Under the pieces are notes generated by a model. The model did no database searches and was not told where the DNA came from. It worked only from the letters and a program-made list of their open reading frames with translations. DNA of 64,000 nucleotides from the NCBI RefSeq assembly GCF_041647995.1, contig NZ_JARRIB010000001.1, positions 1-64,000 on the forward strand, given 5' to 3'. Of this stretch, positions 23,813-50,679 are shown one piece after another (the stretch's first letter is position 1; each line of letters starts with the position of its first letter). The translations under genes were made by a program, and so were the position numbers. Source of the stretch: Pyrococcus kukulkanii. GTDB taxonomy: Archaea; Methanobacteriota_B; Thermococci; Thermococcales; Thermococcaceae.

Positions 23813-26225
<2,413 letters not shown>

Positions 26226-26387: not shown

Positions 26388-26446
26388 ATTGTCAGGCAGC
26401 TCACCCAATCATCACTGCTCAGCGAGGTAGGCCTCATCATCCGTCA
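26388..26446 (-). ncRNA. C/D box guide sRNA (first of a tandem pair)
   Basis: The minus strand reads C box ATGATGA (26440-26434), 11-base guide GGCCTACCTCG, D' box CTGA (26422-26419), spacer GCA, C' box GTGATGA (26415-26409), 13-base guide TTGGGTGAGCTGC, D box CTGA (26395-26392). All four boxes are consensus and the D'-C' spacer is the usual short one. Such RNAs direct 2'-O-methylation by fibrillarin-Nop5-L7Ae five bases upstream of D or D'. The targets would contain CGAGGTAGGCC and GCAGCTCACCCAA; I could not assign them. The ends are approximate. Confidence 0.85.
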
Positions 26447-26477
26447 AAAAGAGAGAAAGAAGGGTTAAAAAAGATAG

Positions 26478-26534
26478 AGGTCAGATACCCTAGGGTTCAT
26501 CACGCTTCAGGTCTAGCGAACCTCATCATCCCTG
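26478..26534 (-). ncRNA. C/D box guide sRNA overlapping the gatE stop codon
   Basis: The minus strand reads C box ATGATGA (26529-26523), 12-base guide GGTTCGCTAGAC, D' CTGA (26510-26507), spacer AGC, C' GTGATGA (26503-26497), 12-base guide ACCCTAGGGTAT, D CTGA (26484-26481). The gatE stop TGA (26528-26526) is part of the C box. The RNA is therefore probably cut from the gatE mRNA tail, with the sister sRNA about 40 bases further on. The targets would contain GTCTAGCGAACC and ATACCCTAGGGT; they are unassigned. Confidence 0.87.
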
Positions 26535-28415
26535 GGAGAGTTCCTGGATCTTCTTCCTCACGATCTGGCTTACCAATTTACCGTCTGCCTTGCCCCTCAC
26601 CCTTGCCATGACCCTACCCATGATTAAACCCATGGCCCCCATACCCTTGGCCTTCACAACATCAACGTTCTGCTGTATTACTTCCTCAACGATTTTCACG
26701 ACTTCCTCCTCGCTCAATAGTGTTAATCCTCTCTCTTGAGCTACTTGCTCAGCTGTCTTCTCCGGGTGCAGAGCGAGCTCCTTGAATATCTCCTCAAAGG
26801 CCTCCTTCGCTATCTTCCCTTCGAGATAAAGTTTGAAGGCCTCCCTTATGTGATCCTCAGTAATGTTCTCAATTGGAACATCCTTCCTTAATCCCTTAAG
26901 AACGACTACTAGAACCGAAGCCGCAAGCGATGGCTTAACGCCCATCTCAATTAGCTCTTCGAATAGCTCATCCCTTTCATCGTCAACCAACGTTTGTGCT
27001 AAGCTTCTATCAATCTTGTACTCCTTAACGTACTTCTCAACCTTAGCCTGGGGTAGCTCTGGGAGGTTCTCCTTTATTCTTCTCTTCAGATCATCCGGAA
27101 TTCTCAGTGGAGGTACATCCGTCTCGGGATACATTCTAGCCTTTCCTGGGAGCGGTCTCATGTACTGCGTATTACCATCTGGAAGGGCCCTCCTCGTCTC
27201 TTCGGGAACACCTTCAATTGCCTCCCTTGCACGTTTAATCACTTCACGCAGAGCATTCTTCGCTGTTTCTTCCTCGGCGGCAACCAAAACGAAGGCATCC
27301 TCATTTCCAAGGCTGAGCCGTTCGACGACCTTCTCGACTTCCTCCTGGGTTATGCCGTAGTTTGGCAACTCATCACTATGGAATATCCCAGGAACGTACT
27401 TCTTTGCCCTGTCCGCAAATTCAGTTCCCAGCCTCCTTCCAGGCTGAATTTCCATCCCTATTAGACCCCTAAACTTAGGAAGCTTTATCGCCAAAACTTT
27501 GCCGCCCTTCTTTATTGTCCTCCCAATAATCTTTGACTTGGTGTTTTGGAAGATATCGGTTACATCGTAGAATTCTTCCTTTATATCCTCGGGTTTAACT
27601 CCCCTCTTCCTCAGCTCATCCCTTATTTTCAGCAGATTCAGTTGCCTCTGTACCTCCCTCTCTATTATTAGAGGGATCATGTCCAGTTCTTGAACTCCCT
27701 TTATCTCTATCCTTGCCCCGCCCTTTATAGAAACGTTTAAATCCTGCCTTATAGTTCCAAGACCACGCTTGACCTTCCTTGTCGCCCTTAAGGCATCACC
27801 AATGAACTTTGCAACAACTTTAGCCTGCTCTGGATGGTGTATATCTGGAGTGGTGCTTATCTCAATTAGGGGTATGCCAAGCCTATCTACCCTATAAATT
27901 ACCTCCCTGTCCTTCCTCTCTATTATCCTCGCAGCATCTTCCTCAAGGCATATAGTTGGGATTCCAACTGTTCCCCAGGGCGTCTCAACTTTTCCATCGG
28001 TAGCTATTATAGCGGTTCTCTGGAATCCAGAAACATTTGAACCGTCAATAACGATCTTCCTCATGTAGTAAATCTCATCTACGGGCTTTGCGTTTAGAAG
28101 GTAAGCAATTTGAAGGGCAACCTCCAAAGCCTCCCTGTCGGGACCCCTTGGAGGTTCCTCATCCATATAGACGAGATCGCTTAGCTCATTGTTTCCCTCA
28201 TAAATATAAATTCTCCCCTTCTTGAACTCCTCAAGCGCCGCCGGATCAACTTCACCTAGTTCACTCATTGTGGGTCTTAGCCTTCTTTGAAACGTGAAAT
28301 CAACTTTGTCCGTTAGCTCGCTTGGAACTGGAGAGAAGAGCTTTTTTGTATCAAGTTGACGGTGAATCTCCAATCCAACTTTAAGGCCAATTTGTTCATA
28401 GTCGATGTTAGCCAT
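26526..28415 (-). CDS. gatE: Glu-tRNA(Gln) amidotransferase subunit E
   Basis: GatE activates and transamidates Glu-tRNA(Gln) to Gln-tRNA(Gln) using ammonia from GatD, the archaeal route to glutaminyl-tRNA. 629 residues with the GatB/E cradle ([53 protein letters not shown]), the GatE-specific insertion related to AspRS, and the C-terminal YqeY-like tail ending QELSQG. GGTGGTGGAG before the ATG at 28415 sets the start (frame open to 28424). It follows gatD with a 12-base gap. Its stop codon lies in a C/D sRNA. Confidence 0.96.
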
Positions 28416-28427
28416 CTCCACCACCCC

Positions 28428-29744
28428 TTAAATTAGATAAGTATTGGGCTTCGTGTAGGGAGTTATTTCTCCCGCATAGTTAGTCAGCATCATGTTTCTC
28501 ACTTCATTGAGATCTTGAGTGTGGCCTAAAACCCACATCAGCTTTACATAGGCCGTCTCCGGTAACATGTCCTCACAGGGGATAACTCCTGCTTTTAACA
28601 ATCTTCTTCCCGTTGCGTAAACGTTCATGTGAACCCTTCCGTAGAGGCACTGGCTAGTCATGCAAACTGCAACCCCCTCTTCTACTGCCCTTCTTATTGA
28701 AGGTATCATATCGTTTGGTGTATGACCTAACCCAGTTCCCTCTATAACTATTCCCTTGTACCCTCTGTCGACAAAGAAGTCTATTATCTCAGGGCTTATA
28801 CCAGGGTACATCTTCACCAAGGCAACTTTTTCCTCAATTTTATCATCAACCCAAACCTCCCCCTCGTTCCTCCTCCGGTAGTCATCCCTTAGGAACTCTA
28901 TTTTACCGTCGCTCCATATCTTAGCTATGGGAATATCGTTTATGCTTCTAAAGGCGTCTCTCCTGCTTGTATGCATCTTCCTTACTTTGGTTCCCCTATG
29001 GGCAAGGCAGTAAGTATCCCCGGTTTCACCGTGCATCACAACCATGACCTCCGCCACTTCGCTGACCGCCATTCTGACCGAGCATATCAGGTTCATCGCG
29101 GCATCGCTACTCGGCCTATCACTACTCCTTTGAGCACCTACCAATATTACAGGCTTATTGAGATCCCTAAGCATGAAACTTAAGGCCGCAGAAGTATACC
29201 CCATGGTATCGGTTCCATGAGCAACGACAACTCCATAAGCTCCAGAGTTCAGCTCCTTCGCCACTTCATGGGCTATTCTTACCCAGTGGGAAGGCTTCAT
29301 GTCCTCGCTGAAGATGTTGAAGAGTAACCTGGACTTAACGTTTGCTATCTCAAATATTTCCGGGACAGCTTTAGCTAGTTCTTCTGCCGTGAACGCAGGA
29401 TAAACTGCTCCAGTTTCATAATCAACTCTACTGGCTATAGTTCCTCCAGTTCCCAGAATTGTAACACTTGGAAGGTTGGGCTTAGGCTCAAGCTCTGCCT
29501 TAAAATGAACCTCAGGCCTTGCCTTTGCCCTTTCAATGACTTCTATAGAGGTAATCTTATCTACGGCAATCCCAATGTTGTAGCCATTGTCGAGCTTTAT
29601 AACTAAAGTGTCTCCTTCAGAAAGTTCGTACGGTGGCATTACAAGACCCTTATACTCAATTTTCTCTCCATCCTCCAGCTTAACGAGCTTAACGTAATCA
29701 CCAATCCCAATTCCATGCCTCTTCATGAACTCTTCAACTTTCAT
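28428..29744 (-). CDS. gatD: Glu-tRNA(Gln) amidotransferase subunit D (asparaginase-like)
   Basis: GatD releases ammonia from an amide donor for GatE. About 438 residues: an N-terminal small beta-barrel domain (to about residue 75), then the L-asparaginase fold with its two threonine sites TGGTIAS and VAHGTDTMGYT, and the downstream lysine/aspartate region. GGGGGAG precedes the ATG at 29744; the open frame to 29774 is not needed. Operon with gatE. Confidence 0.96.
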   Translation of the reverse strand: MKVEEFMKRHGIGIGDYVKLVKLEDGEKIEYKGLVMPPYELSEGDTLVIKLDNGYNIGIAVDKITSIEVIERAKARPEVHFKAELEPKPNLPSVTILGTGGTIASRVDYETGAVYPAFTAEELAKAVPEIFEIANVKSRLLFNIFSEDMKPSHWVRIAHEVAKELNSGAYGVVVAHGTDTMGYTSAALSFMLRDLNKPVILVGAQRSSDRPSSDAAMNLICSVRMAVSEVAEVMVVMHGETGDTYCLAHRGTKVRKMHTSRRDAFRSINDIPIAKIWSDGKIEFLRDDYRRRNEGEVWVDDKIEEKVALVKMYPGISPEIIDFFVDRGYKGIVIEGTGLGHTPNDMIPSIRRAVEEGVAVCMTSQCLYGRVHMNVYATGRRLLKAGVIPCEDMLPETAYVKLMWVLGHTQDLNEVRNMMLTNYAGEITPYTKPNTYLI

Positions 29745-29804
29745 TTCGCTCCCCCATCTTGAAAGGGGGGACAAGTTTAAAGTATTTTATCCAAAAATTA
29801 ATGC

Positions 29805-50623: not shown

Positions 50624-50679
50624 TTGAATGATGAAAACTCCCTGACCTGAACGGTGATGAAGACCGGTTCACTGACCCT
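50624..50679 (+). ncRNA. C/D box guide sRNA opposite the mbhN 3' end
   Basis: The plus strand reads C box ATGATGA (50628-50634), 12-base guide AAACTCCCTGAC, D' CTGA (50647-50650), spacer ACG, C' GTGATGA (50654-50660), 11-base guide AGACCGGTTCA, D CTGA (50672-50675). All boxes are consensus with the same three-base D'-C' spacer as the two sRNAs at 26 kb. The targets would contain GTCAGGGAGTTT and TGAACCGGTCT. The D box overlaps the last codons of mbhN in antisense. No dedicated promoter is certain. Confidence 0.85.

Follow-up and report, generated by a model that had tools for sequence, protein, structure and literature searches.

Two C/D box sets at the 3′ end of gatE

The window analyzed here, a stretch of 64,000 nucleotides from Pyrococcus kukulkanii, carries two complete C-D′-C′-D box sets on the minus strand, at and just beyond the 3′ end of the gatE gene. 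This gene (26526..28424, minus strand) codes for the full-length subunit E of Glu-tRNA(Gln) amidotransferase, as judged by NCBIfam models NF003107 and TIGR00134 (927.8 bits). Before it lies gatD (28428-29774), and after it a gene of the sodium:dicarboxylate symporter family (24948-26225; Pfam SDF). An earlier note on this DNA had reported the two sets as lying on the minus strand about 40 bases apart, and the sequence and an exact pattern search agree with its coordinates.

The first set to be read, s1, occupies 26478..26534 (minus strand) with its short flanks and 26529-26481 when the boxes alone are considered. It consists of a C box ATGATGA (26523..26529), the D′ guide GGTTCGCTAGAC (26511..26522), the D′ box CTGA, the loop AGCG, the C′ box TGATGA, the D guide ACCCTAGGGTAT (26485..26496) and a D box CTGA that ends at 26481. 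The C box includes the gatE stop codon TGA (26528-26526), an overlap that had been pointed out previously and is confirmed by the sequence and by the end of the gatE ORF. The second set, s2, follows after a spacing of 40 nucleotides and occupies 26389..26445 (minus strand) with short flanks, or 26440-26392 for the boxes alone. Its parts are a C box ATGATGA (26440-26434), the D′ guide GGCCTACCTCG (26423..26433), the D′ box CTGA, the loop GCAG, the C′ box TGATGA, the D guide TTGGGTGAGCTGC (26396..26408) and a D box CTGA that ends at 26392.

Both sets reproduce exactly the box order of archaeal C/D sRNAs (RUGAUGA, CUGA, UGAUGA, CUGA, within about 50-60 nucleotides), and in both, guides of about 10-13 nucleotides stand directly before the D′ and D boxes and the C′/D′ loop is short. 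The guides measure 12 and 12 nucleotides in s1 and 11 and 13 in s2, as the 11-13 bases given earlier imply, and each loop is 4 nucleotides long. Nearest-neighbor folding yielded z-scores of 0.40 and -1.05, values from a method that is uninformative for k-turn RNAs.

That TGATGA and CTGA motifs follow one another by chance in the gatE 3′ region, without giving rise to any RNA, is a practically negligible alternative. A strict pattern (C box, 9-14 nucleotides, CTGA, 1-8 nucleotides, TGATGA, 9-14 nucleotides, CTGA) occurs three times in the 64-kb window, namely in s1, in s2 and at 50628-50675 on the plus strand, versus none in 300 windows simulated with an order-1 Markov model. Moreover, conservation in other genomes extends to places where no coding sequence is involved. 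The box sets of s1 and s2 are not due to chance.

The s1 sequence matches the Rfam family RF00095 (snoPyro_CD) with 52.8 bits, above the gathering score of 45, whereas s2 reaches 35.0 bits (E 1.2e-5), below that score, and s2 falls under the cut-off in every genome tested. Both RNAs resemble the family in box order, spacing, length and k-loop, but their guide sequences are their own. Together with conservation and plausible rRNA targets, the Rfam matches support the proposal of the earlier note that both sets are C/D box guide sRNAs. The genome yields 53 RF00095 matches at E <= 1, and a large C/D sRNA set is expected for a hyperthermophilic archaeon. One of these lies elsewhere in the window (50624-50678, plus strand; 51.3 bits, above the cut-off) and is a third C/D box sRNA, the 3′ part of which extends over the end of a 141-codon frame read from the other strand.

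Predicted targets in 23S rRNA

Each guide was slid along the 16S and 23S rRNAs of the same genome, and the sites were converted to E. coli numbering by aligning the 23S rRNA with that of E. coli in MAFFT. The s1 D′ guide GGTTCGCTAGAC is predicted to pair with GCCTAGCGAACC in 23S rRNA through 10 contiguous base pairs, and this would place methylation at A2504. The corresponding E. coli position, about A2388, is only approximate because the site lies in a poorly alignable stretch. The s1 D guide ACCCTAGGGTAT is matched with CTACCCTGGGGA, for a predicted methylation of C2555 (E. coli 2441). For s2, the D′ guide GGCCTACCTCG would select G1198 (E. coli G1059) within GGAGGTAGGCTT, and the D guide TTGGGTGAGCTGC would select C1239 (E. 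coli C1100) within ACAGCTCACCCG, again with 10 contiguous pairs. All four guides form a Watson-Crick pair at position 5 before the D or D′ box. The paired targets are 51 nucleotides apart for s1 and 41 for s2, and we take the two s2 targets to flank the GTPase-associated center on both sides. None of the predicted target sites varies among the 8 genomes in which a 23S rRNA was found.

Permutation tests, in which the guides of all orthologues were averaged and permuted as columns, gave single-guide p values of 0.08 (s1 D′), 0.52 (s1 D), 0.014 (s2 D′) and 0.14 (s2 D). When both targets were required to lie within 100 nucleotides, the joint p was 0.019 for s1 and 0.001 for s2. G1198 is the top 23S site for the s2 D′ guide in every genome tested. 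For some s1 guides of three relatives (G011, G004 and G006), a different place in 23S rRNA scores at least as high as the predicted one. We nevertheless favor the s1 sites named above because a T:G wobble of the D guide becomes C-G in four relatives and because the D′ guide of a related sRNA in two neighboring genera (g5 and g6) pairs with the same A2504 site better than that of s1 does. Thus, s1 and s2 are probably double guides for 23S rRNA, and the predicted target assignment has good support for s2 and moderate support for s1.

Double guides, whose two targets lie within 100 nucleotides, are the usual type and make up about half of 489 sRNAs in Dennis et al. 2015 (PMC4644070), and the s1 and s2 target pairs are similarly close. 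None of A2504, C2555, G1198 and C1239 is among the sites given in the main text of that paper. Our literature search found no open table of Pyrococcus 2′-O-methyl sites; PMC7758197 states that its P. furiosus RiboMeth-seq methylation data have been deposited and are presented in another place.

The full complements of the four guides, which the earlier note had listed for a search, have no exact match in 16S or 23S rRNA, but exact matches there exist for cores of 9-10 bases from three of the guides. The note's expectation of up to four rRNA or tRNA sites stands for rRNA, where each guide has a plausible target, but not for tRNA, where none stood out. A scan of the tRNAs with the guides gave no sense-strand match that came close. 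The top tRNA score, for the s1 D′ guide against L142, was rejected since it involves the antisense strand of that tRNA.

For general features of archaeal C/D sRNA genes we also draw on the review by Breuer and colleagues (PMC7994747). It is conceivable, if rather unlikely, that at least one guide is an orphan or acts on targets other than rRNA, and that the rRNA matches arise partly by chance. The s1 D guide, which taken alone pairs no better than permuted guides, would fit such a scenario, as would the 28% of Pyrobaculum guides that lack a target (PMC7994747). The short distance between the two targets of each sRNA, the conserved guide cores and the lack of a near sense-strand match among the tRNAs argue instead for 23S rRNA.

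Conservation and changing gene order

We searched 94 genomes of the family with models of s1 and s2 that used sequence alone. Each of the nine genomes of the genus has an s1 orthologue (E values no worse than 9e-13). For s2, eight of the nine show a strong match, one of which is disrupted. Conservation in other Pyrococcus genomes was a point on which the earlier note had made its proposal depend. In the remaining genome, G006, the s2 model found nothing convincing: its single weak match belongs to another sRNA. The guide cores are kept among orthologues (GTTCGCTAG and AGGGTAT in s1, GCCT-CC and GGGTGAGCT in s2), and the bases adjoining the D and D′ boxes vary. Matches beyond the genus were partial: the related sRNAs of g5 and g6 match only the D′ half of s1 and were not counted as orthologues.

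The disrupted s2 belongs to G007, where an IS607-family element of about 1.95 kb (transposase match of 184.9 bits) splits the D guide into TTGGGT on the left and GGTGAGCTGCCTGA on the right. The left junction is at about G007:C1 1829416 (L197/L170) and the right junction is near G007:C1:1831371 (L153). This insertion represents a natural knock-out of that guide. In G011, the s1 and s2 orthologues are back to back, with 2 bases from the s1 D box to the s2 C box (L173; G011:C1:1018841-1018944), and the D′ and C′ boxes of this s1 are degenerate, reading CGGA and GTGAAGA, respectively.

The position of s1 relative to gatE differs among the genomes. Only G000, G010 and G007, which represent this species and one close relative, have the gatE stop codon inside the s1 C box. 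The gatE gene of G009 ends with TAA and s1 starts about 30 nucleotides later, and in G005 the two are separated by about 0.9 kb. The G005 copy of s1 corresponds by its coordinates to a 48.8-bit RF00095 match (L196), and the gap before it (L174/L196) contains frames that by eye resemble an AbrB-type antitoxin and a PIN-type toxin. In G011, the s1/s2 pair is downstream of gatE on the opposite strand. In G004, G006 and G008, s1 is not located at gatE, and in the first two of these a stretch downstream of s1 looks tRNA-like by eye, although Rfam reports no tRNA there at its cut-off. Most of these genomes carry s1 near the symporter gene and not near gatE.

These nine related genomes offer a small case of C/D sRNA gene movement, in which s1 is fused to the gatE stop, separate, inverted or beside a tRNA-like gene. 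The changes fit the view in the literature that a transcribed context of any kind is enough. Our literature search found no paper naming s1 or s2 together with gatE. New here are the assignment of targets and the documented shifts in gene neighborhood, and the gain is two guide RNAs with predicted, testable 23S targets. Otherwise s1 and s2 are ordinary sRNAs of a known kind, and the picture of archaeal rRNA modification is unchanged.

The shared stop codon and the origin of the sRNAs

Among the 30 best RF00095 matches in this genome, at least six have an ORF stop within the C box (L003, L004, L005, L008, L027 and L028; in each case the ORF has 186 codons or more). According to PMC7994747, which reports Tripp et al. 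2017, in 25% of archaeal C/D sRNA genes there is an overlap with the 3′ end of an ORF that takes in its stop codon, almost half of these stop codons fall in the C box, and clusters of two or three C/D sRNA genes are known. The overlaps outlined there likewise place the UGA stop of an upstream gene inside the C box, and two-sRNA clusters are also described, so that our case shows no difference in principle from that account and is set apart only by having gatE as the upstream gene. The sharing of the gatE stop with a C box is a common archaeal arrangement that has already been described, and the fusion is neither special nor conserved. The emphasis of the earlier note on this overlap, as a remarkable feature tied to the essentiality of gatE, does not hold up given its frequency in archaea and in this genome and its restriction to few genomes. 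Because the C box contains UGA, the shared stop is probably a neutral, lineage-specific consequence.

In the last 80 nucleotides of gatE we saw no TATA-like element; the top site there has 6 of 8 consensus bases. The gatDE transcript is therefore the most likely origin of s1, which would be taken from its 3′ end. For s2 the source is less certain, because T-rich runs between s1 and s2 could end transcription. TATA-like sequences (CTTATAAAAGG and TTTATAAGG) are found some 30-40 nucleotides before s1 in G011 and G006.

We infer the following course from transcription through processing and protein binding to methylation. The s1 RNA would be cut out of the gatDE transcript at its 3′ end, a step that would cut the tail of the gatE mRNA, and would mature by box-dependent protection and trimming. 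Mutational work as summarized in PMC7994747 indicates that maturation needs the internal boxes and not the flanks, and we assume the same for s1 and s2. Each RNA probably binds L7Ae, Nop5 and fibrillarin through a C/D k-turn and a C′/D′ k-loop. The s1 guides would then direct 2′-O-methylation in domain V of 23S rRNA, at A2504 and C2555, and the s2 guides would do so around the GTPase-associated center, at G1198 and C1239. A given transcript would serve as a complete gatE mRNA or as an s1 precursor, not both, and GatE levels need not change as a result. Overall, we assign a probability of about 0.93 to the reading that s1 and s2 are two conventional archaeal C/D methylation guides for 23S rRNA, with s1 derived from the gatDE transcript and the stop sharing probably neutral.

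One molecule would be unable to yield both a complete mRNA and s1, since the stop codon and the C box share bases. In principle, this exclusion could make the fusion a regulatory coupling, in which each transcript that becomes a guide precursor is lost as gatE mRNA, and the reverse, such that Gln-tRNA synthesis and ribosome methylation would control each other. The gatE tail, which shows no promoter-like element, also speaks for the coupling. In a further version, s1 would have lost its own promoter in this lineage and become dependent on gatE transcription, and such a dependence would link glutaminyl-tRNA supply to 23S methylation. However, we consider both the coupling and this dependence very improbable. 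The fusion is present in G000, G010 and G007 only; G009 has a TAA before s1, G005 keeps the two about 0.9 kb apart, G011 has them inverted, and s1 of G004, G006 and G008 is not at gatE. In addition, reporter experiments described in PMC7994747 found the influence of 3′ overlaps to be neutral or slightly negative.

Several genomes contain another sRNA, whose guides include TTTGCTAC and CCCTGCCGTTAC. Its copies L178 and L185-L188 match s1 weakly and were not counted as s1 orthologues, as they represent a different sRNA with other guides. This genome carries a copy as L003, whose C box also holds an ORF stop.
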